Both the position numbers and the translations under genes were made by a program. From Siphonodentalium dalli (Eukaryota > Mollusca > Scaphopoda > Gadilida > Siphonodentaliidae): 64,000 nt of DNA. The notes under the pieces were generated by a model. It was given only the letters and a program-made list of their open reading frames with translations, was not told the origin of the DNA and did not search any database. The stretch covers positions 114,349,319 through 114,413,318 of the forward strand of contig CP136066.1 of NCBI GenBank assembly GCA_032622095.1, written 5' to 3'. The stretch's first letter is position 1, and the number at the start of each line of letters is the position of its first letter. Shown piece after piece: positions 19,906 to 64,000 of this stretch.

Positions 19906-20390
19906 GATTACAACACGATCGCATGCTTTCCAAAGTGTGTGGTAATATTAATATCAGCACATGTGCTAATCTGTGTCGGACTATTTTATTAAGCGGGATA
20001 AGACTACGAGATTATACTAATTACCCATAATGCAATCCCCAATTGGACAAGAACATATTACACCGGTGACAATTACATATAAAATTATGCAGCTTCTCAT
20101 GTCTCAGCCACAAATAATGATAATCCTTTTGCCTGACAGACACAAACTCAATTTATTTTTTATTATAGTAAAGGTTAATGCTAATGTCACTATATATTTT
20201 TACGCGTGACACCCCCCTCAACAACCCCGCAATCGCCAGTGTACCGGCATCGGCACATAAACTGCCAACATCCCGCGACTGGAGGTTGCCTTGATATGAA
20301 TCAAGCATAGTTCCCAGTTTTGATTGATTGATTGTTTATTTTGCAAAGCCAACATTTAAGTTGGAACATAGCCAAACATATATATACATA

Positions 20391-22699
20391 TATAGTCCAG
20401 TGCATTTATGAGAAAAAAATACCACACCTGGAACTGCAACAGAATTTTGTTTTGCTGGAATAAGTACATAAACCCTCCATAAACAACATACTAAAAATCG
20501 GCAAAAATCGGAAAAAGGGAAATTGGTGAATTTCGTGAAATAACTTTGGGGAAATTTGGTCAATTCATCAATTTATGGATTTTCATGGATGCATATAAAA
20601 ACAATCAAATTCACAAATCCTACAAATGGTACGTGTATTGTGTCGACCTCAATTTCCTGAACCCAGTACTGAAAACCAGTCCCAGATTCATTACGTATTT
20701 TTCGAGTTGTGTGCCTTCAAAAACGCGAGTTTATCTGATTTCGGCCCATTTTCGGGGCCTCAATTTCGAAGAATGATCCAAAATGCCTTATTTATGATTA
20801 ATTATTAAATAAACTAGAGCAAACTGAAGAGATTTTTCAGTGTTATAGTAATTTCCTCACTAGATTAAACACAAAATATGATTAATATGTGTATCTATAA
20901 TTAAGAAGAATATTATATTCTCAAACAAAATGTGTGTTCCATTGTATGGACTTGGCCAATTTTGCCTCTGACACTGAACGTGTGTGATGAAATGCAATAT
21001 TTGAGGTCATGTAACTCAATAATTTAATACCCATATGCCATGCTTTTCTTATAACCTTTTAAGTATGTTGGATTGAACAAATTGTAAACGTATTAACAGG
21101 ACATTATTTAAGAAAATCAACTTATGGCCCTTTGAATACTTAGTTTTAGCTTGTTTCCAAAGATGCCAGTTTGAGGCATTTTTGACCAATCTAAAAGGTT
21201 TTGGGCCATAAAAACAAAAAACAATGGGTGTTTTAATGTGTAAAATTATTTGAACTTTCCTCCCACAACACTTTAGTGATACAAAATTAGCCTTACATTG
21301 GTTATGCCATAGTATTTCACTTGATTTCTTTCATTTTTCAGGAAACTGACTCCTAATGTTAACGTTGGTATAGGGGTAGGAAAAATCACAAAATGCAATC
21401 TTATCACCAAATTACAGCCATTTCAGACACAATGTTGTTTTCTTCCAGTTTGTGTACATTCCTGTTGCATTTTAAAACTGCTTAATACGTTATCGGACGT
21501 TGATTTATAATTTTATGGTTATGTTGTATAAAAACAATCTCAAAATAGCCAATTTGACATTTCACTGCCAAATTATGACAAAAAATATTATGGCTCTGTC
21601 AATAAACATAAACAAAGGAAATATGAATGATGTATGAAAGAACAATGTAAGCAGAAACTGTTAATATAAAGTTTTCTGCTTCAAGATGCATAATTTTGAA
21701 GATTTTGTTGATATGCTTTCCCCTACCCCATTTTTCTGCCGTTCAAATTTGGAGTATGTTTCCACAATGATGAGTGAAATCCAGTGACATTCATTGGTAT
21801 AACCATTGAAATGCTATTTTCTCAACAAAAAAATGATTTAAGAGGACATATCACATAATTTTACACAATAAACGTTCGTTAATTTTTCTGAATATGCCTA
21901 AAATCCTTTTAAAATTGACAAAAACGTCCCACAATAGCATTTTCGGAAAAGAGTCTAGACTAAGAGTTCATATGACCATAATTTTATTTTCTTCACCAAT
22001 GTATTTGGAAATTCCTTCACAATTTGTTCAATCTAGTATTCTCAAAATGTTATGAGAAAAGCAGAGCATATGGATATTAATTTATTGAGTTACATGACCT
22101 CAAATATGGCATTTCGTCACACGAGTTCTGTGTCAAGGCAAATTTGGCTAAGTCCATACAATGGAACACACATTTTGTTTGAGAATATTTTATTCTCCTT
22201 ATTCATAGATGCACATATTAATCATATTTTGTGTTTTATCTAGTGAGGAAATTACTAAAACAGTGAAAAAGTAATTAATTTTGCTCTAGTTTTTTAAATA
22301 ATTAACCATATAATACGGCATTTGGCTCATTCTGCGAAATTAAGGCTCCGAAATCAGGTAAACTCGCGTTTTTGAAGGCACACAACTCGAAAAATACTTA
22401 AGGAATCTGGGAATGGTTTCCAGTTCTGGATTCAGGAAAATGTGGTTGAAAAAATAGGCATGATATTTGTAGGACTTGTAAATTTGAATTTTTTATATAC
22501 ATTCATGAAAACCCATAAATTGATGATTTGACCAAATTTTCTCAATTTCTTTTTCACGAAATTCACTAATTTCCCCTTTTCCGATTTTTGCCGATTTTTA
22601 GTATGTTGTTTATGGAGGGTATATGTACCAATTCCAGCAAAAAAAAATTCTGTTGCAATTAGTTCTGGGTAAAACCATAAATGCACTGGACTAATATAC
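20391..22699. repeat. 2.3-kb diverged palindrome (fold-back element)
   Basis: The whole region is one inverted repeat centred near 21540. Matching pairs include AGTCCAGTGCATTTATG (20395) with CATAAATGCACTGGACT (22677), AAAATCGGCAAAAATCGG (about 20493) with its complement (about 22580), TTGAGGTCATGTAACTCAATAA (about 21000) with its complement (about 22085), and GATTGAACAAATTGT (about 21070) with its complement (about 22025). The arms are about 1.1 kb and look 65-80% identical. No coding sequence was recognised. Confidence 0.8.
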
Positions 22700-23267: not shown

Positions 23268-24112
23268 CCGGTGTTCTGCTTAATAAGTACGTCCTGCCAG
23301 ATAAGTCAATATTTCTAATAATAGTAACGTGGATGTATAGCCCCGCCCTCGGAGAAATATCGCTGCAATTACGACATGGTCGTTTGGCGTTGCCTAGTCA
23401 ATAAATATGTAGTGTATGACGTATTACGCACACGATATCGAAAAAATGCTTCCGTGATCTGATTTTTGAAACGTTTTTACGCGAATAAAGGTTTAAAATC
23501 AACTCCCCGGGCAAATTTCTTCGTATTGGGGACAGGGAATGTGTTTATACATATGGCATCGCTGTTGATAAGAATAAATTCACATTTATGCAATGACTAG
23601 ACCTACCCTAACTTATGATGTCGATTAATAAATATGGCCCATCGATTGCTAATTATGGCAAAATAATTAAATGCTTCTGAGAATTTAGCATTGAATGAGA
23701 AAACAAAGGTTATTACCCCCCCCCCCCCCCCCACACACACCATTGTTGATTAACTACTGTATTTTTGGCTATATTACTTTCTTTGAATGGTCGTATAGGC
23801 TATAGGCTATATTATCACGATAACCCCTTCGGTGGCTATACATGCATCACAATGAATGTGCATTGATACACGGGAAGAATCACACCAAGTTTTGAATACG
23901 TTACTAAAATGATTTAACAAATTCGTAACAATGGATTGGTCAAGTACGCTTGTATTAAAGATCCTCCAGGGTTTGATACCGCGCGCTCTGTATAGTATAT
24001 TACATTACAATTAATCCACGGTCAGACCACGGAAACATGCGAATTTAACTAAATCAACCACAACATAATCACAAACTTTGAGTTGGTGGTTATATACTGA
24101 TGCTGCTCGTAG

Positions 24113-24391
24113 TTATAGATGAGAGCACATTATATCAATATATAGTGTACTATATTTGCATTCTTGGCAGCTATAGTGTAAACCATCGATCGAATCTCCA
24201 TTAAAGAGCAACCGAGGCGACATCGTGCGAAAAAAAAAGTAACTCAAACCATGTTCGGTAGCATGCCTACACCTATATATGTATGGATCCCATGCAAAAT
24301 ATCCCCTATACATTTCGTTAACTCCGTGTTTGTGTGACTGTCTGCTGTGACAGGTGGTTAAGCGTGCCTGTATATAGGCCTTCGCATCCAC
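24113..24391 (-). other. Open frame shared by both duplication copies
   Basis: A 92-codon frame beginning MDAKAYIQARLTTCHSRQ. It recurs at 56605-56865 with small changes and a different C-terminal reading because of an indel. No domain is recognised. Conservation between copies is expected from the recent duplication and is not evidence of function. Confidence 0.15.
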
Positions 24392-25471
24392 AAATCCCAG
24401 TCTATATTATAGGCTGTATATATATATACTGTATCGGAGAAATAGTGGCACGGACTCATTATAGGAATTGATAAGTTGTATATACATCGTTGGGTGGGTA
24501 AACTATATACGTATATGTCTGAGCTAGGGATGAACCATTTATATCAGAATCGCGATAATAAAGGTTATACGGTGAGCAAACTTATATTTAAAACATATTT
24601 AGGCCCTACATGAACGTGTCTAGAATGTTTCTGTTTTGGTGCAAAACTTGGAATTTCTAAATGCACCACCTTTGATCGAACCAAAATAATTCTCAAAATT
24701 GAAGAAAGTCTATATAATTGCACCATACTATGGCCACATATTGGAAATTTATAATCGCTAACTGCACACAAACCTATAGTGTATTGGACTTCAAAGTTCA
24801 AACTGTTGATTTTTTTTTTTCACCAAAGTGGGAAGGGGAGACACCACGACCCCGTCCCGTGTCAACGCGTCCGTGCATATATATAACTGATATCGTCAAT
24901 GTTACTGCATTTTCTCCCCCGCCGCATGCAGCAACAAGTTACATGGGGAGGGGGGCTCTGTGCTAAATTAATTACTGTATGTTCAACTCAATTGCAGAAC
25001 ATTCTGCAAATAAAATATTGTTTGTATGAATTTATGCGTGGGAAACCGAAATACCATTTCCACAGAAGAATGCCCATTGCATCAATTTCGAGTAGTGGTT
25101 TGGACGACCCAAGTTCGTCAGTTCTATGTTCTTGTTGTTTTACCAAGAACTCAACGAACCAACAATCGAGTATTCAATAAAAGAGAATTAAGTGCGAGTT
25201 TACACACTGTCGAATTATATATATCGATTGCTCGATAATAAATTACTAACGCAAGCGCGAATGGCTTAACATATACTCAAATTAAACAGCAGGAGGTAGT
25301 ACCATGCCTCTTGGAAACTAGTGACACAAGATTGTTTACTGCAGATGTCACTTCCTAAAGAAATGAACTGGAAAATATTTCATTTAACTATACTAAGTTA
25401 ATATAAGTGAGCAATTACTCGTAGCGTGATAAAAAAAATCCCAGACAAAAGAATTTTGCTAATATAAAATA

Positions 25472-28292
25472 CTAGCAGGGTTACCCGGCGTTGCCCGGGT
25501 TAATGTATGCTGTGGATATTTGTTGGGAATAGAGAATGCTCTTGCTTAAAGTGTTATACGTTTTCTCATAAATTGTATATTCAAATAGCATCACAAAACA
25601 TGGTTATTATAGTCATGGCTCACTCACATTGTCAATTGTCATTCTGTTTATCGCGATTAATCCGTTCCACCAATAATGAAGTATTTATTTATTTACAACT
25701 GCGTATACATTAGACGTTATAATATGATACATGAACATCATAAACACATTAGTTCGATAAAAGATGATAATTGGGTTTTACATATTGAGATGTATCAATC
25801 AATCTAGTGAGTTGGACTATGATCTCAAGGACACCTGGCTATCATATCTCCATGAAGATACAGATGTTTCAAAGAAATTTCCAGGTGCTCCTCTGTTCAT
25901 GGTGCTATATATTTGCTAAATATTCTTAGTTTAAACGAAATGTTGCTGCGCCTATATATCAGCTACATGTGCCAGGCACAGAGCGAGAGTTTGAGTTGTT
26001 TATGTCAGTCGATGAGTCTGTTCTAAAACCCTTGTCAGATGTCAGTATTGGTAGGATCCTGAAAAGTCTTGTGCTACTAACTGCATTTTCTTGTATATCA
26101 GAAGAAACTATATTTGACTGCACACTGTGACCACTATTTTTGAACAGGCCTTCCATATCTCTTGACAAATTGTAACTTTTTGTGGAAACTGCATTGAATG
26201 GAACAGACTAAAAAAATTTATTATATATATGCAATCCTCTGACTGTTCGAGGTCTCTCAGTTTGCACGAATATATGTATCTCTTCAATAGAATGATAAAT
26301 ATACTTTTAATGCTTCTTCTAGTTATCTCTTTTTGCTAGCTCATTGTGTGAATGCCTTAATTGCCATTCCCATATAAATATGACTGTTAAGAAGATATAA
26401 TTGTTCAAGTGACTTACGTGGGTCACCATATGTCGGGATTGTTAAATGTGAACGCCCAACTACTTAAAATGATATGGAGATGGCCTGGTGACTGTATATA
26501 ACTTATATGTGGATATCGGCGAATAGCAATCTTATCAACGATAGTGCATATCCGCTCGCCATCCGTGACGCAAACGACACCAAATGTGATTTAATTCATG
26601 GTATATCATTAGAGAAAAACGTGTATGAATTTGGTGGAATTTGGTTTATTAAATCAATTGTTGATGCAACGCTGACTCGAACAACGCCATATTGCGAAGG
26701 TGATTATATATTCGTTTGGTGGAAATCAGCGACAAAACTATTTCACCATATTTTTTTAATTTCCCCTCCCACCAACAGCGTCATTTTAGAAAATTTTAAC
26801 CCGCACCATTATCTTCCTTGTAAAAAGTTACCCCCTCTTAGAACGCCTTGGTGCCATCTCGATTGTACCGCGTGAAGTTATATATAGAACGCACACAGAC
26901 AGACAAAAAGACAGACAGACAGCACGATTTTATTTCTTGTATAATTTGAGAAGAACGTGTCTGAATTTGATGGTAATTGGTACTAAAAATATTTTGTATC
27001 AGTTTTGGTGACCCTCCCGTCCCTATTTCGGACTCAAGCTGCACACACTAAGACTCATTAGAGATTAGATATGCATATATAAGAAATTGGTGAAAATTGG
27101 CGAGTATACAAATTCGTATCAAATTTAAGGTCCCCATATCTCTCACCCATATGGCACCAAGTTGGTGTATCTAAACCACACGATAAGATTCCTCGTATCA
27201 CGGAGAAGAATATGTATAAATCTGGTGGAAATCGGCACTAAACATATAGATATAAGTTTTTGTGTCCCTCTCATCTCTATACACCACTGACTCGAATGGC
27301 CCCACTTGTGACATCCTTAAACCACACGATTACACTCCTGATATCATGGAGATGATTGTTTATAAGTTTGGTGATAATCGGCGACTAAACAATTTTTTTT
27401 ATCAAATTTGGTGCCAATCCCTCCCCTCTCCATCTCTCACCCAAACAGCACCACTATGGCTCTTTAGATCACGATTAGATTCCTCGTATCATGGATAAGA
27501 ACGTGTATCAATTTGGTGGAAATTGGCGCTAAAAATATTGTGCATCAATTTTGGTGCCCCTGTCCCTTTCAATGCAACCCTGACTCGAATGGGGCCACAT
27601 CTGACAGATAAAAGCCACACCATTAGACTCATCATACCATGGGGATGATTTTGTATAAGTGTGGTGGCAATCGGCGACTTATTATCAAATTTAGTTCCCA
27701 CCCCTCCCAATCTCTCATCCAAAAACAACAATTTGGCGTTGTTAAATCGCACAATTAGATTCCTTGTATCATGAAGAAGAAAATATATCAATTTGGTGGA
27801 AATCGGCGCTAAAATTAGTTTGATCAATTTTGGTGCCCCTCTCCCCTTCCGTTCATCCCTGACTCAAACGACGCCACTTTTGACATATTTAAACCACACC
27901 TTTGGATTCTTCATATCATGGGGATGATTATATGTAAGTTTCGTGGCAATCGGCGACAGAAAACAAATCTGCCCCCCCCCCTTCCGGGCACCCCTGACGC
28001 GAACGGTGCGACTTTTGCCATATTTGAACCACGCCATTAGATTCCTCATATTATGGGGATGATTATATATAAGTTTGGTGGCAATCGGCGACAAATTTTT
28101 TTTCTGCCCCTACCACTTTTCTGCCCCTGACAACAACGGCGTCACTTTAGAAAATTCTAACCACGACCATTATCTTTCTCGTAAAAAACTACTCCTAGTA
28201 GACCCCTTTGGCATCATCTGGATGGTCCCCTGTGAATTTCTATAGAACACAGACAGACAGACAGACAGACATTCGCAAATATAGATATAAGA
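25472..28292 (-). mobile_element. Non-autonomous 2.8-kb Helitron with an exact empty site
   Basis: On the minus strand it starts TCTTATATCTATATTTGCG (28292 down) and ends CCCGGGCAACGCCGGGTAA...CTAG (25475-25472). The empty site in copy 2 (57971|57972) reads AAAATA|TTATC, so insertion was between A and T with no duplication, as Helitrons do. The 3' hairpin ACCCGGCGTTGCCCGGGT is at 25482-25499. The body from about 26500 to 28250 holds diverged tandem units of about 270 bp containing ATCATGGGGATGATT and GTGGCAATCGGCGAC. The frames at 26507-26875 and 27489-28094 are these units. There is no Rep/helicase. Confidence 0.88.
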
Positions 28293-30400
28293 TTATCACC
28301 TGAGCGCATGTTTAGGCCTATGTCAGAGATAAGCACCTTGAAATTGGAGACTGCTACTTTGGGTACAAAGTTTCAGTTTTCTTTAGTAAAATTATCTAAC
28401 TCAATTTAGAACTCTGACATATATTAATAAAAACTGTTTGGCTGGACCATTGGTGCTAAAAAATGTACACATGGGTCAATTGACCCGGGGAGTGTCATGG
28501 GATTGGTGCCATTGACATCAGATGTCTTAAAAGGACAATAATAATTAATTATACACCCAAAATGGTCGGAATTTTGTAATAAAGATTGCTTCGCATGGGT
28601 CAATTGACACGAATATTGTCACGAGATAGGTGTTGTTAACATCTGATTCAGACGACTTAAAGGGGCATAAACAATTCTAATTTAAAAAATGAATCATATA
28701 CACAAAATGGTTAGACTCTGGTCGCTGGAAATTGGTATACAGGGGTAAATTGACCCGTGCAAACTTAAAGGGGAACTTATAGATTATATTATAGAGATGA
28801 GCAATTCTTATCAGCTTAAACGATATGTAGTAAAATTGGTACACATGGGATCCCATGACTAGGGGAATGTCATGGGATTGGCGCCTTGGACATCAGATGA
28901 CATAAAGGGGGGTTTGTAAAATATGTTAACATAGCTTATCAATTAAAAGCATTTATCATCTCAGAAGATATATGGGAAAATTGGTACACAGAGATAATAT
29001 GAAATTGGGCGTGTCATGGGATAGGTGCCGTTGACCTCAGATGACTTAAAGAAGTACTAGTAATTAGCAATAAAGAGCGTTTATTATCAACTTAAAAGTA
29101 GAGGTAACTTTATCCAGAGTTTCATGCAATATATATGTGATGCTTATCTCAGGTGACTAATAAATAGTTTAAATGACTGGAGGGGGCACTAATAATGTGT
29201 TCATTCGTTACCTGAGCAATGCCAGGTACCCTATCTAGTAATTGATACAGATATGATGGACTTATTTTTTGTATGGTGGAATGATTAGGTCCCGCGCTGA
29301 CAGCACCCCATCCTCTCGTGCAAGTTTCCTCACCAAGCAGGTACTTGATCACTGTCTGATGGCTCCATTTTCATATTTTAAAATCACCTCCATATCACCT
29401 TATTGTGAAGTGCATCATTGATCTACCATTTAGTAAAGGTATCCCACAAATTTGTCATAAATGTACTTCAAATATATTACTGTATGCAGACATCTATCCA
29501 ATTATTGGAGAAACCTAACACAGGCTTGTCTTTCAACACACAATTGATACAAATGCTTGCCATTCAAGGCACATATCTAAATTATTGTTCCTTCAATACA
29601 TTGAAACTCCACAAGTACAACAGGGCATCAGATGAATATTTAAACTAAACTGTTTAAAAAATGGAAAGATTCTTTGCAAACTTCAAGCTTCTGTTGGCCC
29701 ATCAGAGGAGATACTGTAGGGAATCTTTTTGAACAAACCACTTTGATTTGAAATGGAAGTGCGCGACTAAAATATTGTAATCTGTGGGTAACATCAGGTG
29801 TGGTTTCTTCACTGCTTCAAGATTGCTGACTAACATTGATTTGAATTTATAGATATTGGGATGAAATATCTCCAAATATTGACAGTAGAATTCTTGTCTA
29901 TAAAAGCTGGTAATTTAGTGACACAGCTGGGGGATAATACAAATGGAAACACTTTAGAAATGACTTATTGAAAGATGCAATTGCCCACATGCCTGTAAAT
30001 ATATTCATTATTGACTGAATGTAATGCAGAACCGCATGCACTGTATCTGTAATTGATAAACATCTTGCAATGGTTATTTCATTTATAACACTGGTTATAC
30101 ATGTTGGTATATCTTAAAAGGATAAGATATAAAAATGTCGTTTCATCTCATCGATAGAGGCAATATTATTTTCATCTCATGCATGATCCATGAAATGTTG
30201 GAAGGTCTTCTCCCCAACTTGTTTTCAGAGGCCATATATCCAGGACAATGGAGAGAGAGAGAAAGAGAAATACTGTCAAACTATTTATTCAACTTCGGGA
30301 AAAGTCCATAACAACAATATCTAATATGTGCTCTATAGTAGTACATACATGTATATATTAAAATATGGAGCTTCAAAGATAAAATGAGAGTTGCACAAAA
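28293..30400. other. Copy 1 sequence without recognised genes
   Basis: Contains four or five loose repeats of a GGTACACATGGG...TGACCCG...GTCATGGGATTGGTGCC module (about 28460-29060). It also holds the 224-bp stretch missing from copy 2 (29346-29569). No coding exon was identified. Confidence 0.5.
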
Positions 30401-30411
30401 TATTGTATTTA

Positions 30412-30569
30412 AGAAATGAATGTAGTGGGTGTGCGTGTGTTATTGGGGGATACGGCGCTGTGGTCGTTTGGGGACATTGTGTAAAGCGGTTGACACTAAA
30501 TGTGCCACAACAACCTATGTGCAGTATCTCTCAATAACACACACGCATAAACCCACTGCATTCATTTCT
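30412..30569. mobile_element. 158-bp MITE-like hairpin (copy 1)
   Basis: AGAAATGAATGTAGTGGGT...GTGTGTTATTG at the left pairs with the complement at the right, giving arms of about 45 bp with small gaps. The duplicate is at about 61166-61323. No clear target duplication was found. Confidence 0.6.
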
Positions 30570-31409
30570 TTATTTATATAGCTTTTTTATTGTTTATTCC
30601 CATAAACAAGACAGTCAATGACTGTGGGTCGCTCACCAGAATTTAAAGACTGAGAAGACTGAGACTCTGAAGACTACAAGGGTCAGCACGTGACAATATC
30701 ACTTAAGACAAGTAGTTCTAAACAGGGACATAGCTGGAGGTTCTCAGATGAGCAAGGCTCGTCAAATGAAAATTCTAATTACACACCACTGACAAATCTC
30801 CAATCTCTTACCTTTTAAAGAAAACAACCATACCACAGTACTAAGTTCACAAAAATCCTTTTGCACATCCCTCTTAGATTGAAATTTACAACTGGTACCA
30901 GTACTTCAAGCTCTCAAACGTTTGAAAATTACAAACCAAATAAAGTTAAAATTTGTGGCCAATTTGGTCCAACAGTTTAACCTGAAGTAGGAACATATGG
31001 ACTGTTGGTTTAAAAACATACATGAGGGAAAAACAAACCAAACTATGAGAACAATTCTAACCTATTTTTTATGTGAACATCTAATCTACAACTAATGTTA
31101 TACCAGGCATGAAATTTTCAACTGTTTAAATTTTGATCAAATAGGGGGTCAAAACCCCACCGCTCTACACTCCTTCCCCGTTGCCTCCAACATTGCCCCC
31201 ACCCAGGCTTCCTAGAAATCAATATTATTATACCAGTACCAAACAGGATAGAGGAGAGTTAAATCTCTTATCTCTGCCCCTATTAGAACAAATGTGAATC
31301 CCCATCTATGAGATCCCTTCATCTGGTAATATCAATATACCCCCACTATCCAATAGGGTATGATTTCACCTGGATGAGTGGTGGTTAACAAAATAATATT
31401 GGGACAGCC

Positions 31410-31535
31410 AAGTCTGTATTTAGAGTGTCTGACCTCTGCAGAATGAGGTCCACAAAAGGTGAATTTAATGACACTATTCCCCAAGGTGGAATAGCACAAC
31501 GTATTCACTCTCTGGGGACCTCATTTCCTAACGAG
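31410..31535. repeat. GAATGAGGTCC hairpin, diverged copy
   Basis: GCAGAATGAGGTCC...GGTGAATTTAATGACACTATTCC pairs imperfectly with the following GGAATAGC...TTCACTCTCTGGGGACCTCATT. It is related to the two hairpins at 45503-45790. The open frame 31425-31610 is this hairpin. Confidence 0.6.
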
Positions 31536-32189
31536 AGGCCAATCACGATCGACAGATGTTTAACCCATACCTTAGCGATAACTGATAATTGGTCTAAGAT
31601 ATCACAGTAATACATATATCAGTACTTAAACTTAAAAACAAAAGCTCAAATAATTTGTCTTAAGAAGGGGTTAAAGTATTTGGAGTGGGGGAGGAGTCGA
31701 TTTAAATCTCATAACTCTGTCCCTATTCACACCATGACCTCTCACTGTGAGATCCAATGGTTTAGCCATTAATAAATTTGACAGATAGGATAAACAATTA
31801 TCCAGCCAGCAGGTTGTTTGTCTTTACCTGCATACAACCACCCCCTAGAGCTTTGTAACATATGTCACCACTCAATTAATAACAGATTTCGCTTGGAATG
31901 ACATCTATTAAAGGTACTCTCATATACTCTGGATATTGGATGTTCACATGGCAATTTATTGCTATCATTATATTACATGCAACTATTGCAATAAAATCTT
32001 CATATCTTCAAAAAAGGACATCACACCTAATTAATGGTATACAACTAAAACAAATTAGTGTCAATGAAATATTTTTTTTAATTAAATATTTTTTTTATTA
32101 TTTAATATAAAAGTTTTTTTAATATTTTTTGCGTGTTAAATTGAGAGAGGAAATTCAATCTAAAAAAAAAATTTAAATTAAATTTTTTA

Positions 32190-32588
32190 ACAAAAAAAAA
32201 GGGGTCATAACTCCTTTAAAATAAATCGGATCAAACCCAAATTCGAACTTGATAATCTCACATACCAAATTTGGTGTCAATCAGATGAAATTGTTTTTGA
32301 GTTATGGCAGCATGTGTAAATTATAAGTAAAAAAGGGCCATAACCAGCCAAAACTGTAAACAAAACAAAACTCGATTCAAACCCATATTCGAACTCGAAC
32401 TGTATTTTGGGCTGAGAAACCTGTATACAAAATTTGGTTCCGATCAAATAGAAAATGTTAGAGTTATCGCATTATGCCTAAAGTGTCTACGGACGGACAG
32501 ACAGATGGATGTACAGATGGATGGATGAACGACGAGTTGTCAATCCGGACATTGACACTTTGTGTACCATACTATGGTATAGGTACAC
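32190..32588 (+). repeat. GGGCCATAAC tandem-unit element with terminal hairpin (copy 1)
   Basis: Units contain GGTCATAACTCC, ATCGGATCAAACCC, TTCGAACTTGAT and AAATTTGGTTCCGATCA, followed by GGACGGACAGACAGATGG. The end is the hairpin GTGTACC-ATAC-TATG-GTAT-A-GGTACAC (32562-32588). The same element is at about 62950-63348, and a relative at 34900-35423. Confidence 0.65.
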
Positions 32589-32900
32589 ATAAAACGTTTT
32601 ATCTCATGCAGAGTACAAGAAAAATGTATCAAAGTTCAAACCTGTTGTGCCTCTTTAATATTTCTATTCACATTTGTAATCAATTGAAATCAATGTCGAA
32701 AAAGCTTTCCATTAATATATAAATAAAACAAACTAGACCTACAGTTCTAAAAGTGTTTTGAATAATTATTTTGTTCTCATAGACTGATACAGAGCTCTCA
32801 AGTTGTCTTCCCATACAACCAACAAATCTACTAAACACAATCACATTATTAACCTCCAATAGTAATGCTATTAAACCATAAAACCAGATTATGCCTTTAA

Positions 32901-33259
32901 CCCTTTAACCAACAAACTGGCCAAAAACGCCCAAATAAAGCTTCAACATCCTAAAATATCTTCGGTCCGTCTCAATAAAACCATACAAATATGGATATCA
33001 TTGGAACCGGTTCATTGACCACATTGTGATGGTTACAGTTATGCCCTGTGCCAATGCATTCTCTTATATATGCGAGTCGACCATAGGTCGCCTCGCATAT
33101 ATAAGAGAATGCATTGGCCTAAAAAAAACATTTTTTCTAATATTTTTCTACATTCTTTGACAATTTTATCATTTTTAATGTGTGTTAAGCCAATGCATTC
33201 TGTCGATTCGCATATATAAGAGAATGCATTGGTACAGGGCCGTTCTGCTGGGTAAAGGG
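32901..33259. mobile_element. piggyBac-like MITE with TTAA target and empty site
   Basis: Flanked by TTAA (32897-32900 and 33260-33263). The ends CCCTTTAACCAACAAACTGGCC and the complement CCCTTTACCCAGCAGAACGGCC form inverted repeats. The paralogous site in copy 2 has a single TTAA at 63663-63666 and is otherwise intact. Inside is a 26-bp perfect-arm hairpin (33051-33117) and a related hairpin (33190-33232), both built on CCAATGCATTCT. It has no coding capacity. Confidence 0.92.
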
Positions 33260-33597
33260 TTAAGATGAAATTTAAATAACCATGCATATAAAATATAAAA
33301 GCATAAACATTCCATCTATGATATCTCATCATATGGCCAACACATCTGCTAGCAGTTAATGGACCTATATGTACGTCCCGCCCACCTGTAGACTGCATGG
33401 TTACTGTTACTACGCACCACAAGCCATCTCAATTCCGCTATCTCTTCAGTGCTAAAATAGCTTCCGATGAGAAAGGACTGTGTTGTTAAACGCCATGTAA
33501 CACGATAATATAGGTCCCTTCTGAATATCACGATTTTCAAGATACCTTTGTGTGTATATATGCAACATGTAAAAGTGACTGTCATTAGATATAAACA

Positions 33598-35423: not shown

Positions 35424-35448
35424 ATAATATAAGTGTCAATGACACTGT

Positions 35449-36111
35449 AGCTCAACTTAGGTAGGGGGAATATTTTAATGGTTGACAGTAAATGGAGGAA
35501 TAGGAAAGGTGCTAATTGAAATGTCTAACCTAGCTGTGCCAAAGGATTTAGTCATGCAAAGAGTAAAATCCAAGATGGCCACCAGCGGCCATGTTTTTTG
35601 GCCAAATGGCCCCAAAATAACTCGTTCCCGTCTACATGTCATTGTTGACATCTATGACAAATTTCATGAAGATCCGACTAAAGCTACGATCTGCAGCCCA
35701 CGCCCAAGGATTCAGTCATGCGAAGAGTAAAATCCAAAATGGCTGCTGGCGGCCATGTTGTTTGACAGAACGACCCCAAAATGACTTGTTCCCATCTACA
35801 TGTCAATATTAACATCCATGACAAATTTCATGATGATCAGACGAACAGGACTACCTGTAGACCGCGCCAATGGATTTAATTTTGAAATTCAAGATGGCCA
35901 CCAGTGGCCATGTTTTTTGGCCGAATGACCCCAAAATGACTCGTTCCCATCTACATGTCAATGTCAACATTCATGACAAATTTCATAAAGATCAGACCAA
36001 AGGTACAACCTGTAGCCTGCGCCAAAGGAAATTGTTGACAGACACACAGACACACGGACGACGGATGCCAACTCATGGCAATAGCTCAAACTTACAAAGT
36101 AAGTTGAGCTA
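35449..36111. mobile_element. TAGCTCAACTTA-ended element with internal tandem units
   Basis: A 12-bp perfect inverted terminus: TAGCTCAACTTA at 35449-35460 and TAAGTTGAGCTA at 36100-36111. Three internal units of about 175 bp contain AAGATGGCCACCAG, GGCCATGTTTTTTGG and CCCAAAATGACTCG, followed by GACAGACACACAGACAC. The left end is preceded by the palindrome GTGTCAATGACAC (35433-35445). Confidence 0.65.
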
Positions 36112-36179
36112 AAAATGACCCTATTTGAACAAATCTGAACCCAGTCACCCAAGGCCCATCCATACCGAATATAATTTCA

Positions 36180-39154: not shown

Positions 39155-39273
39155 ATACTAATTTGGATAACCAAATCAGCTTTTTGTGAAATTCCATTGT
39201 TGTTGTACTGGATGATATGGGGACCATTGAATCGTATTATGTATCTTTAATAATGAAAGTGTCAATGACACTG

Positions 39274-40247
39274 TAGCTCAACCTGGAGAGGTGATAATTC
39301 ATACATTACAGCCAATGGAGATATAAGGAATGCGGAAAGTTGTTATTTTTAAGTAGCGTTCACCAGAGGTCAACCCGAAGCACCTTATGAAGTTTGGGAT
39401 CAATGAGAAAAAAAATAATGTTGTCAGTCAAGGGCATGACAAGGTATTTAGTGATGCAAAGAGTAAAATCCAAGATGGCTGCCGGCAGTTCTTTGAATAT
39501 TGTTCAAATTCAAGAGCTGCCATCCAGAAGTGATCGTGAAATGCCTGTAAATTTTTTGAACATTTCTCCAATAAACGTCCGCTGCAGGGTGTGCCGATGA
39601 ATTAATTTGTGAAATCCAAGATGGCCGTATGTTTGTTTTAAAAAATTTCTTTTTTAAATTTGATGGCTCCCATCTAGTGACAATGAGGGATGTGGCCTGT
39701 AGGAAATGGCGAAGGATTATGCAAAGAATAAAATCCAAAATGGCCACTGGTGGCCATGTTTTTCAACTAAATTTAATGACTCTTTATCTAGTGGTTCATA
39801 TGAATTTTGGTGACGAATGGATTATGGATGTGATCTCTAGCCTACTGTAGGGCACCAAAGAATTTAGTCATGCAAAGAGTAAAATCTAAGATGGCTGCCA
39901 GCAGCTATGTTTTTCATAAAAATTCATTCAATTTTGATAGCCACCACCCAGAGGTGACCCTAAACATGGCTGTAAATTTTCAAAACATTTTTCCAATAAA
40001 TACCGACTAAAAGGTGTGCCGATGAATTCAAATTTGAAATCCAAAATGGCTGTTTTAAACGAATTTCGGGAAACATTCATGGCTCCCATGTAGAGGTCAC
40101 TCCAAAGATCCTTATGAAGTTGGTGATGATCGGATGAGAGCTGTGACCTGTAGGGAAATTGTTGACTGATGGATGGATACACGCTGAGACAAACGCCATC
40201 CCATGGCAATACATGTAGCTTACATTTTACTTTGGCAAGTTGAGCTA
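39274..40247. mobile_element. TAGCTCAAC-ended element with internal tandem units
   Basis: TAGCTCAACCTGG at 39274 and AAGTTGAGCTA at 40237-40247 form the ends, with GTGTCAATGACACTG just before the left end as at 35433. Units contain GTCATGCAAAGAGTAAAATC, AAGATGGCTGCCG and GCTCCCATCTAG. It is a relative of 35449-36111 and of the minus copy at 1620-2396. Confidence 0.6.
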
Positions 40248-40259
40248 AAAATTGCACCT

Positions 40260-41327: not shown

Positions 41328-42128
41328 TCTATTATATATTTTGGAAGATCTGTCTGTGTGTGGTGTATCTGTCTGTGTGTGTGTGTGTTCGCGATGAACT
41401 CGAAAACGGCCAACCTGATTTCGATGAAACTTCGTATGTGAGGGTACTATCGGTCGGGAAGTGGCATAGGCATATTAATTTTCAGATCCGAGGTCAACTT
41501 TGCACGTGCCGAGGTCAAATCTGTTTTTACGCTGTGTTACGGGACTTTCATTTGAGTTCGGTGCTTACAAATCGATTCGAAACAGCGCGAATAATAAAAT
41601 GCCAGTCATAATAATGACACTGTGAGAATCTTTCGTGTTTCCTCTTTCCAACGATATATAATGCGTACGTATCTGTTTTAGTTATCTGCCTCAATTATCA
41701 AGAAGAAGTGGTACTATCTTCCATCAGGATAAAAACAATGCGTAACTTCTATGACGTCGTTAGAGGTCATAACGTTAGATCACGTTAACGCTTAACCGGC
41801 CGATGCATTTGACTGTTTCAGACGTCTTGGCGATATCTCGGGCACCGATGGTAATTTATCTTTACGTTGAAACTTGATAATTAATGAGCGTGTGTATATG
41901 AGGCGTGTTTATATACTTGAGTGGAAATCAAATCGGGTTAAACTGGCGGATTTTGACGGACGAAATTTGATGCATAGGGTATCTCGGTATCCGCTGGGCC
42001 GATTTCCCGGAATCCGCTGGGCCGATTTCAACCATTTTTGGGGTGTTGGTGTTTGACCCCACCTGACATTGACCTTCAAAATGGTCAATTCAAGGTCAAA
42101 GCCCAGACGAAGTCGGGTCACCTTCTAG
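41328..42128 (+). mobile_element. Non-autonomous Helitron A of a head-to-tail pair
   Basis: Starts TCTATTATATATTTTGG after A41327 and ends CTTCTAG at 42128, preceded by a CCCAGACGAAGTCGGG hairpin-like stretch. The body has CTGTCTGTGTG repeats, then TTCGATGAAACTT and GGCATAGGC modules. The next base is the first T of a second Helitron. Confidence 0.78.
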
Positions 42129-42850
42129 TCTATTATATATTTTGGAAGATCTGTCTGTGTGTGTGTCTGTCTGTGTGTTCGCGATGGACTCGAAAACGGC
42201 CGAGCCGATTTCAATGAAACTTGGTATGTGGGGGTATTTTCGGCCGGGGACTGGCATAGGCCTATTAATTTTCCCGTGCAACATGACCTTGACCTTGAAA
42301 TCGGGTAATTTCAAGGTCAAATGCCCGAATATCAAGGGATTTCGATGAAACTTGGTATGTGGTGGGACTTTCGGCCGGGGAGTGGCATAGGCCTATTAAT
42401 TTGCCCGTGCGACGTGACCTTGACATCGGGTCATTTCAAGGTCAAACGCCCGAATATCACGGGATTTCGATGAAACTTGGTATGTGGGAGTACTTTCCTA
42501 TGGGGAGTCTCATAAGCATATTCATTTGCCCGTGTGACGTGACCTTGAAATCGGGTCATTTCAAGGTCAAATCGCCAATTTTGATGGGATTTCGACGAAA
42601 TTTTATACATAGGGTTACTTTTGTCCACTGAGTGTTTTGGATGGGTCAAATCGTGACCCCGACCTGACCATGACCTTCAAAATGATCAATTCAATGTCAA
42701 ATCGGGTAAAACCGGATGGATTTCTATGGGCACGTTTGTCATGTACTTTTGTCCGGGCAGTGTTTTGGACTGGTCAAATCGTGACCCCACTTGACCTTCA
42801 AAATGGACAATTCAAAGACAAAGCCCGGACGAAGTCGGGTCACCTTCTAG
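42129..42850 (+). mobile_element. Non-autonomous Helitron B of a head-to-tail pair
   Basis: Starts TCTATTATATATTTTGG directly after the CTAG of Helitron A and ends CTTCTAG at 42850 before T42851. It holds about four units of 110-125 bp with GATTTCGATGAAACTTGG, GCATAGGCCTATTAATTTGC and TCAAGGTCAAA. It is about 80% similar to Helitron A. No Rep/helicase is encoded. Confidence 0.8.
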
Positions 42851-55712: not shown

Positions 55713-55784
55713 CTTATCTGGCAACGTACTTATTAAGCAGAACACCGGTGTTCTGCTTAATAAGTACGTCCTGCCAGATAAGTC
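55711..55784. repeat. Palindrome at the left border of duplication copy 2
   Basis: GACTTATCTGG...TTAAGCAGAACACC (55711-55746) pairs with GGTGTTCTGCTTAA...CCAGATAAGTC (55747-55784), broken only by a 2-base gap. The right arm belongs to the duplicated sequence (also at 23270-23307). The left arm is absent at copy 1. Confidence 0.9.
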
Positions 55785-58106
55785 AATATTTCTAATAATA
55801 GTAACGTGGATGTATAGCCCCGCCCTCGGAGAAATATCGCTGCAATTACGACATGGTCGTTTGGCGTTGCCTAGTCAATAAATGTGTAGTGTATGACGTA
55901 TTACGCACACGATATAGAAAAAATGCTTCCGTGATCTGATTTTTTAAACGTTTTTACGCGAATAAAGGTTTAAAATCAACTCCCCGGGCAAATTTCTTCG
56001 TATTGGGGACAGGGAATGTGTTTATACATATGGCATCGCTGTTGATAAGAATAAATTCACATTTATGCAGTGACTAGACCTACCCTAACTTATGATGTCG
56101 ATTAATAAATATGGCCCATCGATTGCTAATTATGGCAAAATAATAAAATGCTTCTGAGAATTTAGCATTGAATGAGAAAACAAAGGTTATTACCCCCGCC
56201 CCACACACACCATTGTTGATAACTACTGTATTTTTGGCTATATTACTTTCTTTGAATGGTCGTATTATCGTATAGGCTATAGGCTATATTATCACGATAA
56301 CCCCTTCGGTGGCTACATGCATCACAATGAATGTGCATTGATACACGGGAAGAATCACACCAAGTTTTGAATACGTTACTAAAATGCTTTAACAAATTCG
56401 TAACAATGGATTGGTCAAGTACGCTTGTATTAAAGATCCTCCACTGAGGGTTTGATACCGCGCGCTCTGTAGTCTATTATACTACAATCCACGGTCAGAC
56501 CACGGAAACATGCGAATTTAACTAAATCAACCACAACATAATCACAAACTTTGGGTTGGTGGTTATATACTGATGCTGCTCGTAGTTCTAGATGAGAGCA
56601 CACATTATATCAATATATAGTGTACTATATTTGCATTCTTGGCAGCTATAGTGTAAACCATCGATCGAATCTCCAATAAAGAGCAACCGGGACGACATCG
56701 TGCGAAAAAAAAGTCACTCAAACCATGTTCGGTAGCATGCCTACACCTATATATGTATGGATCCCATGCAAAATATCCCCTATACATTTCGTTAACTCCG
56801 TGTTTGTGTGACTGTCGGCTGTGGCAGGTGGTTAAGCGTGCCTGTATATAGGCCTTCGCATCCACAAATCCCAGTCTATATTATAGGCTGTATATATATA
56901 TATATACTGTATCGGAGAAATAGTGGCACGGACTCATTATAGGAATTGATAAGTTGTAGGCCTATACATCGTTGGGTGGATAAACTATATACGTATATGT
57001 CTGAGCTAGGGATGAACCATTTATATCAGAATCGCGATAAAGGTTATACGGTGAGCAAACTTATATTTAAAACATATTTAGGCCCTACATGAACGTGTCT
57101 AGAATGTTTCCGTTTTGGTGCAAAACTTGGAATTTCTAAATGCACCACCTTTGATCGAACCAAAATAATTCTCAAAATTGAAGAAAGTCAGATCTATATA
57201 ATTGCACCATGCTATGGCCACATATTGGAAATTTATAATCGCTAACTGCACACAAACCTATTAGTGTATTGGACTTCAAAGTTCAAACTGTTGATTTTTT
57301 TTTACCAAAGTGGGAAGGGGAGACACCACGACCCCATCCCGTGTCAACGCGTCCGTGCATATATATAACTGATATCTTCAATGTTACTGCATTTTCTCCC
57401 CCGCCGCATGCAGCACAAGTTACATGGGGAGGGGGGGGGGGCTCTGTGCAGAACATTCTGCAAATAAAATATTGTTTGTATGAATTTATGCGTGGGAAAA
57501 TGAAATACCATTTACGAAAGTAAGTTCTATATGCATTTCTACCCCCCCCCCCACATTTCCATAGAAGAATGCCCATTGCATTAATTTCGAGTAGTGGTTT
57601 GGACGACCCAAGTTCGTCAATTTTATGTTCTTGTTGTTTTACCAAGAACTCAACGAACCAACAATCGAGTATTCAATAAAAGAGAATTAAGTGCGAGTTT
57701 ACACACTGTCGAATTATATATATCGATTGATCGATAATAAATTACTAACGCAAGCGCGATTGGCTTAACATATACTCAAATTAAACAGCAGGAGGTAGTA
57801 CCATGCCTCTTGGAAACTAGTGACACAAGATTATTTACTGCAGATGTCACTTCCTAAAGAAATGAACTGGAAAATATTTCATTTGACTATACTAAGTTAA
57901 TATAAGTGAGCAATTACTGGTAGCGTGATAAAAAAAAATCCCAGACAAAAGAATTTTGCTAATATAAAATATTATCACCTGAGCGCATGTTTAGGCCTAT
58001 GTCAGAGATAAGCACCTTGAAATTGGAGACTGCTACTTTGGGTACAAAGTTTCAGTTTTCTTTAGTAAAATTATCTAACACAATTTAGAACTCTGACATA
58101 TATTAA

Positions 58107-59395
58107 CAAGAGGTGGCATCAGAGATGATGTGTCTCGTTTTCGGTGGCTTACCGCCGGTGGCTCAAATTTTATCGGGCCAGGCTGGTTTTCGAACTCGTC
58201 CTATACCGAGCAAAAAATTCCTGAAAATTTACTAATTAAGGGCCATAACTGTATAAAATTTTATTGGGCCAGGCTGGTTTTCGAACTCGTCCAGGATATT
58301 ATTGGAAGACACCTATATAACAAATTTTAGTTGAATCGGATGACGTTTGTTGAAGTTATCGCACTATAACGAGCTAAAAAATAACGAAAAATGACTAATT
58401 AAGGGCCATAATTCTATCAAATTTTATCGGGCCAGGCTGGTTTTCGAACTCGTCCGAAATATTCTTGACAAGTATGTCTATTCCAAATTTTAAACAAATC
58501 GGAGTACGTTTGTTGAAGTTATCGCGCTAACGAGCTAAAAATTCACGAAAAATGACTAATTAAGGGCCATAACTCTATCAAATTTTATCGGACCGGGCCG
58601 GTTTTCTAACTCGTCCGAGGTATTCTTGGGAGACACCTATATATCAAAATTTCAATCAAATAGGATGATGTTTGTTAAATTATCGCGCTAACGAGCTCAA
58701 AATTCGTTCAAAATGACTATTTAAGGACCATAACTCTATCAAATTTTATCGGACCGGGCCGGTTTTCTAACTCGTCCGAGGTATTCTTGGGAGACACCTA
58801 TATATCAAAATTTCAATCAAATAGGATGATGTTTGTTAAATTATCGCGCTAACGAGCTGAAAATTTGTGAAAAAATGACTAATTAAGGGCCATAACTCTA
58901 TAAAATTTTATCGGACCTGGCCGGTTTTCGAACTCGACCGAATATTCTTGGGAGACACCTATATACCAAATTTCAATCAAATCGGATAACGTTTGTTGAA
59001 GTTATCGCGCTAACGAGCTGAAAATTCGTGAAAAATGACTAATTAAGGGCCATAACTCTATCAAATTTTATCGGACCAGGCCGGTTTTCGAACTCGTCCG
59101 AGATATTCTTGGGAGACACCTATATCCCAAATTTCAATCGAATCAGATAACGTTTGTTGAAGTTGTTGCGCTAACGAGCCTAAAATCAGTGAAAAATGGC
59201 AAAGGGCCATAACTCTGTAATAAATGTGCGGACGAACCCGATTTTTTGTCTGCAGCTTACGTGCATGGATATGTACTCACACATTTTTTTTTAATCCGTC
59301 AATAAACGGTTGAGTTATAAGCAAAACACGCCGCCCGCCCGCCCGCCCACCGTCCCTCATCAAACTGGAAGTCGAGTTTTGGAAAAAAACTCGAC
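58107..59395. mobile_element. Unclassified 1.29-kb element with TAA duplication and end hairpins
   Basis: The empty site in copy 1 (28425-28427) has one TAA. Here TAA lies on both sides (58104-58106 and 59396-59398), giving exact ends CAAGAGGTGGCATCAG... and ...AAAAACTCGAC. There are no terminal inverted repeats. A hairpin CATCA-GAGA-TGATG lies near the left end and GTCGAGTTTT-ggaaa-AAAACTCGAC closes the right end. Between them are about seven units of roughly 150-165 bp (GGGCCATAACTCTATCAAAT, CGAACTCGTCC, TTCTTGGGAGACACC, GTTATCGCGCTAACGAGC), then a GCCC microsatellite. No coding sequence. Confidence 0.85.
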
Positions 59396-61165
59396 TAATA
59401 AAAACTGTTTGGCTGGACCATTGGTGCTAAAAAATGTACACATGGGTCAATTGACCCGGGGAGTGTCATGGGATTGGTGCCATTGACATCAGATGTCTTA
59501 AAAGGACAATAATAATTAATTATACACACAAAATGGTCGGAATTTTGTAATAAAGATTGCTTCGCATGGGTAAATTGACACGAATATTGTCACGAGATAG
59601 GTGTTGTTAACATCTGATTCAGACGACTTAAAGGGGCATAAACAATTCTAATTTAAAAAATGAATCATATACACAAAATGGTTAGACTCTGGTCGCCGGA
59701 AATTGGTATACAGGGGTAAATTGACCCGGGCAAACTTAAAGGGGAACTTATAGATTATATTATAGAGATGAGCAATTCTTATCAGCTTAAACGATATGTA
59801 GTAAAATTGGTACACATGGGATCCCATGACTAGGGGAATGTCATGGGATTGGCGCCTTGGACATCAGATGACATAAAGGGGGGTTTGTAAAATATGTTAA
59901 CATAGCTTATCAATTAAAAGCATTTATCATCTCAGAAGATATATGGGAAAATTGGTACACAGAGATAATATGAAATTGGGCGTGTCATGGGATTGGTGCC
60001 GTTGACATCAGATGACTTAAAGAAGTACTAGTAATTAGCAATAAAGAGCGTTTATTATCAACTTAAAAGTAGAGGTAACTTTATCCAGAGTTTCATGCAA
60101 TATATATGTGATGCTTATCTCAGGTGACTAATACATAGTTTAAATGACTGGAGGGGGCACTAATAATGTGTTCATTCTTTACCTGAGCAATGCCAGGTAC
60201 CCTATCTAGTAATTGATACAGATATGATGGACTTATTTTTTGTATGGTGGAATGATTAGGTCCCGCGCTGACAGCACCCCTCCTCTCGTGCAAGTTTCCT
60301 CACCAAGCAGGTACTCACATATCTAAATTATTGTTCCTTCAATACATTGAAACTCCACAAGTACTACAGGGCATCAGATGAATATTTAAACTAAACTGTT
60401 TAAAAAATGGAAAGATTCTTTGCAAACTTCAAGCTTCTGTTGGCCCATCAGAGGAGATACTGTAGGGAATCTTTTTGAACAAACCACTTTGATTTTAAAT
60501 GGAAGTGCGCGACTAAAATATTGTAATCTGTGGGTAACATCAAGTGTGGTTTCTTCACTGCTTCAAGATTGCTGACTAATATTGATTTGAATTTATAGAT
60601 ATTGGGATGAAATATCTCCAAATATTGACAGTAGAATTCTTGTCTATAGGCTCTATAAAAGCTGGTAATTTAGTGACACAGCTGGGGGATAATACAAATG
60701 GAAACACTTTAGAAATGACTTATTGAAAGATGCAATTGCCCACATGCCTGTAAATATATTCATTATTGACTGAATGTAATGCAGAACCGCATGCACTGTA
60801 TCTGTAATTGATAAACATCTTGCAATAGTTATTTCATTTATAACACTGGTTATACATGTTGGTATATCTTAAAAGGATAAGATATAAAAATGTCGTTTCA
60901 TCTCATTGATAGAGGCAATATTATTTTCATCTCATGCATCCATGAAATGTTGGAAGGTCTTCTCCCCAACTTGTTTTCAGAGGCCATATATCCAGGACAA
61001 TGGAGAGAGAGAGAAAGAGAAATACTGTCAAAACTATTTATTCAAATTCGGGAAAAGTCCATAACAACAATATCTAATATGTGCTCTATAGTAGTACATA
61101 CATGTATATATTAAAGTATGGAGCTTCAAAGATAAAATGAGAGTTGCACAAAATATTGTATTTAA

Positions 61166-61323
61166 GAAATGAATGTAGTGGGTGTGCATGTGTTATTGGG
61201 GGACATGGCGCTGTGGTCGTTTGGGGACATTGGGCAAAGCGGTTGACACTAAATGTGCCCCAACAACCTATGTGCAGTATCTCTCAATAACACACATGCA
61301 TAAACCCACTGCATTCATTTCTT
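61166..61323. mobile_element. 158-bp MITE-like hairpin (copy 2)
   Basis: Paralogue of 30412-30569, with a few substitutions in both arms. Confidence 0.6.
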
Positions 61324-62949
61324 TATTTATATAGCTTTTTAATTGTTTATTCCCATAAACAAGACAGTCAATGACTGTGGGTCGCTCACCAGACTTTAAA
61401 GACTGAGAAGACTGAGACTCTGAAGACTACAAGGGTCAGCAATTGACAATATCACTTAAGACAAGTAGTTCTAAACAGGGACATAGCTGGAGGTTCTCAG
61501 ATGAGCAAGGCTCGTCAACTGAAATTTCCAATTGCACACCACTGACAAATCTCCAATCTCTTACCTTTTAAAGAAAACAACCATACCACAGTACTAAGTT
61601 CACAAAAATCCTTTTGCACATCCCTCTTAGATTGAATTTTACAACTGGTACCAGTACTTCAAGCTCTCAAACGTTTGAAAATTACAAACCAAATAAAGTT
61701 AAAATTTGTGGCCAATTTGGTCCAACAGTTTAACCTGAAGTAGGAACATATGGACTGTTGGTTTAAAAACATACATGAGGGAAAAACAAACCAAACTATG
61801 AGAACAATTCTAACCTATTTTTTATGTGAACATCTAATCTACAACTAATGTTATACCAGGCATGGAATTTTCAACTGTTTAAATTTTGATCAAATAGGGG
61901 GTAAAAACTCCACCGCTCTACATTCCTTCCCCGTTGCCTCCAACATTGCCCCCACCCAGGCTTCCTAGAAATCAATATTATTATACCAGTACCAAACAGG
62001 ATAGAGGAGAGTTAAATCTCTTATCTCTGCCCCTATTAGAACAAATGTGAATCCCCATCTATGAGATCCATTCATCTAGTAATATCAATATACCCCCACT
62101 ATCCAATAGGGTATGATTTCACCTGGATGAGTGGTGGTTAACAAAATAATATTGGGACAGCCAAGTCTGTATTTAGAGTGTCTGACCTCTGCAGAATGAG
62201 GTCCACAAAAGGTGAATTTAATGACACTATTCCCCAAGGTGGAATAGCACAACGTATTCACTCTCTGGGGACCTCATTTCCTAACGAGAGGCCAATCACG
62301 ATCGACAGATGTTTAACCCATACCTTGGCGATAGCGATTAGCTATAACTGATAATTGGTCAAAGATATGATCACAGTAATACATATATCAGTACTTGAAC
62401 TTAAAATCAAAAGCTCAAATAATTTGTCTTAAAGTATTTGGGGTGGGGGAGGAGTCGATTTAAATCTCATAACTCTGTCCCTATTCACACAATGACCTCT
62501 CACTGTGAGATCCAATGGTTTAGCCATTAATAAATTTGACAGATAGGATAAAAATTATCCAGCCAGCAGGTTGTTTGTCTTTACCTTCATACAACCACCC
62601 CCTAGAGCTTTGTAACATAATGTCACCACTCAATTAATAACAGATTTCGCTTGGAATGACATCTATTAAAGGTACTCTCATATACTCTGGATATTGGATG
62701 TTCACATGGCAATTTATTGCTATCATTATATTACATGCAACTATTGCAAATAAAATCTTCATATCTTCAAAAAAGGACATCACACCTAATTAATGGTATA
62801 CAACTAAAACAAATTGGTGTCAATGAATTTTTTTTTTTTAATTAAATATTTTTTTTATTTAATATAAAAGTTTTTTAATATTTTTTGCGTGTTAAATTGA
62901 GTGAGGAAATTCAATCTAAAAAAAAAATTTAAATTAAAAAAAAAAAAAA

Positions 62950-63348
62950 AAAAAAAGGGGTCATAACTCCTTTAAAATAAATCGGATCAAACCCAAATTC
63001 GAACTTGATCTGTATTTTGGGCTGATAATCTCACATACCAAATTTGGTCAATCAGATGAAATTGTTTTTGAGTTATGGCAGCATGTGTAAATTATAAGTA
63101 AAAAAGGGCCATAACCAGCCAAAACTGTAAAAAAAAAAAAAACTCGATTCAAACCCATATTCGAACTCGAACTGTATTTTGGGCTGAGAAACCTGTATAC
63201 AAAATTTGGTTCCGATCAAATAGAAAATGTTAGAGTTATCGCATTATGCCTAAAGTGTCTACGGACGGACAGACAGACAGATGGATGAACGACGAGTGGT
63301 CAATCCGGACATTGACACTATGTGTACCATACTATGGTATAGGTACAC
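62950..63348 (+). repeat. GGGCCATAAC tandem-unit element with terminal hairpin (copy 2)
   Basis: Paralogue of 32190-32588. It has extra A-run length (about 62936-62956 and 63128-63141) and a segment CTGTATTTTGGGCTG absent from copy 1. It ends with the same GTGTACC...GGTACAC hairpin (63322-63348). Confidence 0.65.
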
Positions 63349-64000
63349 ATAAAAAGTTTTGTCTCATGCAGAGTACATGTACAAGAAAAATGTATCAAAG
63401 TTCAAACCTGTTGTGCCTCTTTAATATTTCTATTCACATTTGTAATCAATTGAAATCAATGTCGAAAAAGCTTTCCATTAATATATAAATAAAACAAACT
63501 AGACCTACAGTTCTAAAAGTGTTTTGAATAATTATTTTGTTCTCATAGACTGATACAGAGCTCTCAAGTTGTCTTCCCATGCAACCAACAAATCTACTAA
63601 ACACAATCACATTATTAACCTCAAATAGTAATGCAATTAAACAATAAAACCAGATTATGCCTTTAAGATGAAATTTAAATAACCATGCATATAAAATATA
63701 AAAGCATAAACATTCCATCTATGATATCTCATCATACGGCCAACACATCTGCTAGCAGTTAATGGACCTATCCGTACGTCCCGCCCACCTGTAGACTGCA
63801 TGGTTACTGTTACTACGCACCACAAGCCATCTCAATTCCGCTATCTCTTCAGTGCTAAAATAGCTTCTGATGAGAAAGGACTGTGTTGTTAAACGCCATG
63901 TAACACGATAATATAGGTCCCTTCTGAATATCACGATTTTCAAGATACCTTTGTGTGTATATATGCAACATGTAAAAGTGACTGTCATTAGATATAAACA

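Follow-up and report, generated by a model that had tools for sequence, protein, structure and literature searches.

A probable Helentron-associated element with internal tandem repeats in a segmental duplication of Siphonodentalium dalli

To which kind of mobile DNA does the element at 58107-59395 (element A) belong, and did it duplicate its target on insertion? Both questions arise in the window, by which we mean the whole 64,000-nucleotide stretch of DNA analysed. The initial annotation had left the element unclassified; canonical Helitrons and TIR transposons were compared there, and Helentrons and the other strand were absent from that comparison. We propose, with a probability of about three in four, that element A is a non-autonomous Helentron-associated element (HINE) of the pearl/Cg_HINE type found in bivalves and that it is oriented on the minus strand. 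It appears to be an ordinary representative of an already described kind, not a new class.

Occupied and empty sites in a segmental duplication

The window (62.9% AT), animal-like in its repeat style, contains a segmental duplication, 23268-33597 versus 55745-64000, which aligns in five main pieces at 92.8-99.0% identity and whose copies differ by several insertions. The occupied site of element A and the paralogous empty site were compared inside the window. Element A is present in the second duplicate only, and the first duplicate is uninterrupted at that site. The left flank (57964-58109) matched 28285-28430 at 97.3% over 146 bp, and the right flank (59396-60315) matched 28425-29345 at 99.0% over 921 bp. 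Around 28425 the empty site reads TATATTAATAAAAAC, and the target site delimited by the comparison (28422-28430) has the minus-strand letters TTTTTATTAATATATG. Since the flanks match the first copy and the first copy lacks the element, the pair has caught a single insertion postdating the duplication; precise loss from the first copy would account for the difference less simply. Element A is a genuine insertion, as the paralogous site lacks the insert. The initial annotation was right in describing a mobile element without TIRs, with a hairpin at its terminus and tandem repeats inside.

The occupied/empty pair fixed the boundaries of element A to within 3 nt. The ends had been said to be known to the base. 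The empty site does define them, but a slide of 3 nt remains, which leaves four phases, and the coordinates 58107-59395 are correct provided that the TAA is counted as duplicated. In the T/T phase the whole element spans 58106-59397 on the minus strand, with an end ambiguity of 58104-58107 and 59395-59398.

The duplicate pair preserves clean junctions of different kinds, because it also holds a TTAA insertion and a Helitron-like insertion. The first, of 359 bp (32901-33259; empty site near 63666), has a TTAA duplication, CCCTTTAACC-like inverted ends and inner inverted repeats, and from the duplication and the inverted ends we take it to be a piggyBac-like MITE. The second, of 2821 bp (25472-28292; empty site 57971/57972), reads TC...CTAG on the minus strand with the inverted repeat CCCGGGCAACGCCGGG near its 3' end. 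Its position between A and T requires no duplication, and it carries a GTCT microsatellite near its 5' end and internal 135-bp repeats. By the definition excerpted from PMC4067079 it is canonical Helitron-like on the minus strand, and oyster Helitrons are described likewise in the excerpted text of PMC7992393.

Several further features of the window were recorded. Helitron-like 3' ends occur at 42125-42130 (CCCAGACGAAGTCGGGTCACCTTCTAG) and 42847-42850 (CCCGGACGAAGTCGGGTCACCTTCTAG), the former being directly abutted by TC, as in head-to-tail Helitrons. An inverted repeat of about 980 bp (20389-21364 / 21740-22697) has arms that are 79.9% identical and about 375 bp apart. About 225 bp at 29345-29570 is present in one duplicate only (60315/60316 in the other), and by eye it has neither a duplication nor inverted ends.

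Order of parts on the minus strand

In the excerpted description of oyster HINEs, a 5' subTIR, normally of 11-12 bp, is followed by its complementary inverted repeat (IR) and then by a microsatellite. A stretch that varies from 10 to 500 bp leads to the central repeats, most of them 140-180 bp long, and after these come a 3' subTIR and, last, a palindrome (PMC7492417). Our assignment of element A to the HINEs was made because its module order on the minus strand equals this order as published for Cg_HINEs (PMC7492417, PMC4067079, both as excerpted). Given that the minus-strand order is that of Helentrons and HINEs, the label "unclassified" was not supported.

The terminal signatures of element A are TTAGTCGAG with its hairpin at the 5' end and CTCTTGTT at the 3' end. 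At the 5' end, a T-rich flank is followed by AGTCGAGTTTT and its inverted repeat (59370-59396, minus strand), which form a perfect 11-bp stem with a 5-nt loop. This hairpin folded at -10.3 kcal/mol with a z of -7.95, and none of 200 shuffles was as good. The right-end hairpin reported earlier is therefore perfect, but its stem is of 11 bp rather than 10 and includes the first T of the right TAA. Element A thus begins with a 5' subTIR and complementary IR of the kind that the excerpted HINE accounts place 2-4 nt from the end.

The next part is a tetranucleotide microsatellite-like stretch of GGGC units (59329-59356, minus strand). When 110-bp stretches were drawn at random from the window, 344 of 20000 reached its period-4 score of 12/12; any draw that started within the element was counted as a miss. 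About 110 bp separates the GGGC stretch from the central tandem array (58207-59216, minus strand), which consists of a 161-bp unit in 6.3 copies with 87% matches; the pairwise identity of its six units is 79.5-96.2%. The array bears out the internal tandem repeats claimed initially, and a microsatellite followed by central repeats of 140-180 bp, the Cg_HINE arrangement in the excerpts of PMC7492417, is accordingly found in element A. With at most 2 mismatches allowed, 20 occurrences of the motif GGGCCATAACTC were counted in the window, where 2.97 were expected; element A holds 7 of them. No ORF of at least 90 aa overlapped the element.

A second HINE-type family in the window is represented by two related copies on the same plan as element A and with T-run 5' ends, element C (35431-36115) and the longer element E (39257-40251), whose ends were set by comparing the two copies by eye and not by empty sites. 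On the minus strand, both start with ATTTTTAGCTCAACTT and finish with GTTGAGCTACAGTGTCATTGACACTT. The inverted subTIR matches at 12/12 positions in C and 11/12 in E, and lies 1 nt from the palindrome AGTGTCATTGACACT common to both. The 5' TA of C and E is the element's own, because it belongs to the repeated subTIR.

At the 3' end of element A, the candidate 3' subTIR AAAACGAGAC (58132-58141, minus strand) is identical to the inverted 5' subTIR at 8/10 positions and lies 1 nt from a palindrome, the same distance as in the C/E family. When placed freely in the last 70 nt, an 8/10 match was reached by 729/2000 shuffles and 646/2000 random stretches, and a match so placed is at chance level. When held near the position of the C/E subTIR, which was picked after both elements had been seen, it was reached by 357/20000 random stretches (1.8%). 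The palindrome itself (58117-58130, minus strand) has a 5-bp stem, CATCA/TGATG, which the sequence places some 10 nt before the 3' end; the minus-strand terminus is CCTCTTG-TT. The palindrome lies within the size and distance published for 3' palindromes (5-10 bp, 8-35 nt from the end; PMC4067079, as excerpted), but it folds weakly, with a z of -1.88 on the minus strand (10/200 shuffles as good) and only -1.20 on the plus strand (26/200). The left-end hairpin described initially is thus present as a 5-bp stem, but it is a weak one. The weakness of two parts of element A, its candidate 3' subTIR and its 3' palindrome, is a point against the HINE reading.

Other hairpin elements were sought with an automatic hairpin and period-4 scan, which kept 2 of 60 hairpins, namely element A and 63319-63351. 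The scan missed elements C, E and B and the first-copy duplicate of element D, probably because their hairpins have bulges or mismatches and their microsatellites are degenerate. A 5' hairpin is present in B, whose right end lies near 35427, and in D, whose right end is at 63319-63351 and whose duplicate lies near 32592. The search for a 3' subTIR to the left of these elements gave only matches with 3/12 mismatches, at 2, 2 and 1 places, and B and D therefore neither help nor hurt the HINE reading.

Junction phases and the apparent TAA duplication

On the plus strand the filled site reads TATAT-TAA-CAAGAGG...AAAACTCGAC-TAA-TAAAAAC; element A thus has a TAA on each side, where the empty site has one. 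The insertion point slides over 3 nt, and a single insertion therefore has four equivalent phases. One of these is T/T on the minus strand, T^TAGTCGAG...CTCTTGT^T, without duplication; another is A/T. The 3-bp TAA duplication inferred initially was consequently not established, since a duplication-free T/T insertion fits equally well. The target is T-rich with TT at both ends (minus-strand ATT/AGTCGAG and CTCTTG/TTAA; empty site TTTTTATTAATA), which is the target expected of a HINE. In the excerpted text of PMC7492417, oyster HINEs favour T-rich DNA, with TT suggested as the site and no duplication found, and mite HINEs have at least 2 T flanking each end (PMC4067079, as excerpted).

The hairpin at the right end bears on the ownership of the shared bases. 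At least the first T of the right-hand TAA speaks for belonging to the element, because the hairpin pairs that base, although one extra pair could be chance. For the same reason, pairing within the hairpin, the A beside GTCGAG on the minus strand was assigned to the element, and it is better counted there than to a duplicated target. All six ends of A, C and E have TT. TTA is present at each end of A and of C, and at one end of E out of its two. These figures allow for a preference for TTA and speak against an invariant duplication in the C/E family. The apparent TAA/TTA duplication can be explained by a TT(A) common to the target and the element ends.

The strongest rival of the HINE reading is a TIR-less DNA transposon that truly duplicated 3 bp of TAA/TTA, such as a Harbinger-like element that has lost its TIRs or a member of an undescribed cut-and-paste group. 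The TAA on both sides of element A, with one TAA in the empty site, is what such an element would leave, and the TTA at both ends of element C agrees with it; that C has these ends and that the single A insertion is compatible with a 3-bp TTA/TAA duplication also count against the HINE reading. However, terminal inverted repeats were absent from element A in all four phases, with 0-1 perfect terminal pair and 4-6 identical positions of 20, so that the initial statement on this point holds. In addition, one base of the supposed duplication is paired within the hairpin, only one end of copy E has TTA, and the internal layout is the HINE layout as excerpted from PMC7492417. Collectively, we regard a true duplication by a TIR-less transposon as unlikely. 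PIF/Harbinger was dropped for element A, its terminal inverted repeats amounting to 0-1 perfect terminal pair in the four phases. Decidedly unlikely, in our estimation, is a mollusc group of TIR-less, hairpin-ended elements that truly duplicate TTA/TAA, are moved by some enzyme other than a Helentron Rep/helicase or any known DDE transposase, and have been mistaken for Helentrons over their tandem repeats. If the duplication were true, the classification of such elements as Helentrons would have to be reopened.

The A/T phase on the plus strand raises the question of a canonical Helitron. In this phase (phase 3), TTAA^CAAGAGG...CTCGACTAA^TAAA, the terminal CTAA fits CTRR and the hairpin lies 2 nt before the end, and canonical Helitrons (TC...CTRR, inserted between A and T) resemble element A in having a hairpin and no TIRs. 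Their ends and target do not fit, however: the plus-strand 5' end is CA and not TC, and neither TC nor CTRR occurs in any minus-strand phase. The hairpin of element A almost abuts the end, against a spacing of about 11 nt inside it in the excerpts of PMC4067079, and the insertion at 25472-28292 in the same duplication does have TC, CTAG and A/T. A canonical Helitron is thus very improbable here, and it was rejected since TC and CTRR occur together in no phase on either strand.

A further rival is an element moved by a single-strand transposase of the Y1-HUH type, similar either to Replitrons or to IS200/IS605. IS200/IS605-like elements have subterminal hairpins, and element A has hairpins near both ends, no TIRs and a short AT-rich target. 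Replitrons, which are likewise short and TIR-less, are described in the excerpted text of PMC10741241 as having terminal direct repeats of 5-11 bp and duplications of 2-8 bp, whereas the terminal direct repeat of element A is 0-1 bp in every phase. The left hairpin is also weak, and we consider a Y1-HUH transposase a very unlikely agent.

Proposed movement and comparison with known elements

What is observed in element A is the insertion itself, the arrangement of its parts, a T-rich target and a TT at either end. For the steps that led to the HINE insertion we reason by analogy with Helentrons. An autonomous Helentron at another locus of the genome would supply a Rep/helicase/endonuclease protein, and this protein would nick T-rich sequence at the 5' end. 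Rolling-circle replication would copy out one strand and end on reaching the 3' palindrome. The single-stranded product would next be inserted at a TT dinucleotide with no duplication of the target, and what looks like a TAA/TTA duplication would consist of the common TT and an A present by chance. For element A we infer the enzyme, the rolling-circle step and the lack of duplication from this analogy.

An autonomous partner was sought among the 56 stop-to-stop ORFs of at least 90 aa in the window by comparison with Pfam (E ≤0.01), a length threshold that misses shorter exons. None of the 56 gave a Rep, helicase or endonuclease match, which counts against the HINE reading. Two had any Pfam match, one to an integrase core, below its cut-off (10601-11179), and one to a PHD finger (8381-8650).

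Ends of the form ACAAGAGG plus hairpin are common in mollusc genomes. Beyond the window, the exact core motif gave 0 matches in viral_contigs (18 bases) and 0 in genome_contigs (19 bases), and element A had no match among phages and none among plasmids. A 15-base core motif matched 16 viral contigs, all of which were compared with the window by blastn (E ≤1e-3). Two of the 16 had one 31-bp stretch, 87% identical, that matched two array units; the viral contigs were dropped as relatives, since such 31-bp matches are about what selection by an exact 15-mer yields. When sequence strings were searched in the literature, the titles among the matches listed were unrelated.

HINEs carry satellite-like repeats and spread them through the oyster genome according to the excerpted text of PMC7492417, and each clean site pair is therefore of value: an occupied/empty pair helps to fix the ends of a HINE and to establish whether the target was altered. 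The case of element A shows how a T-rich target together with TTA-like element ends can mimic a 3-bp duplication.

Among known systems, element A is alike to the Cg_HINEs of Crassostrea gigas in module order, 5' subTIR and IR hairpin, microsatellite, central repeats of about 160 bp, short (in element A weakly folding) 3' palindrome, T-rich/TT target and lack of a long ORF; this likeness is one of layout as described in the excerpts of PMC7492417. The two differ in that the candidate 3' subTIR of element A matches at only 8/10 positions and its microsatellite is of the GGGC type, and not the GTCY/GTCC/GTCK motif that several Cg_HINEs have in common (PMC7492417, as excerpted); the deviating microsatellite also weighs against the HINE reading. 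The pearl, DTC84 and MgE elements of bivalves also have two flanking modules that enclose a short array of repeats about 160 bp long, and are likened to element A by their excerpted descriptions only (PMC7492417; for pearl and DTC84 also PMC5139131). HINE-Mo and DINE-1, as excerpted from PMC4067079, share with it a palindromic 5' subTIR 2-4 nt from the end, TT flanks and, in some copies, central repeats; they also have a palindrome 8-35 nt from the 3' end, a range that includes the distance of the weakly folding palindrome in element A. Their subTIRs are of 12-15 bp, whereas the candidate of element A is of 10 bp, and the 3' subTIR of HINE-Mo lies about 38-60 nt from the end, against about 25 nt for the candidate of element A (PMC4067079).
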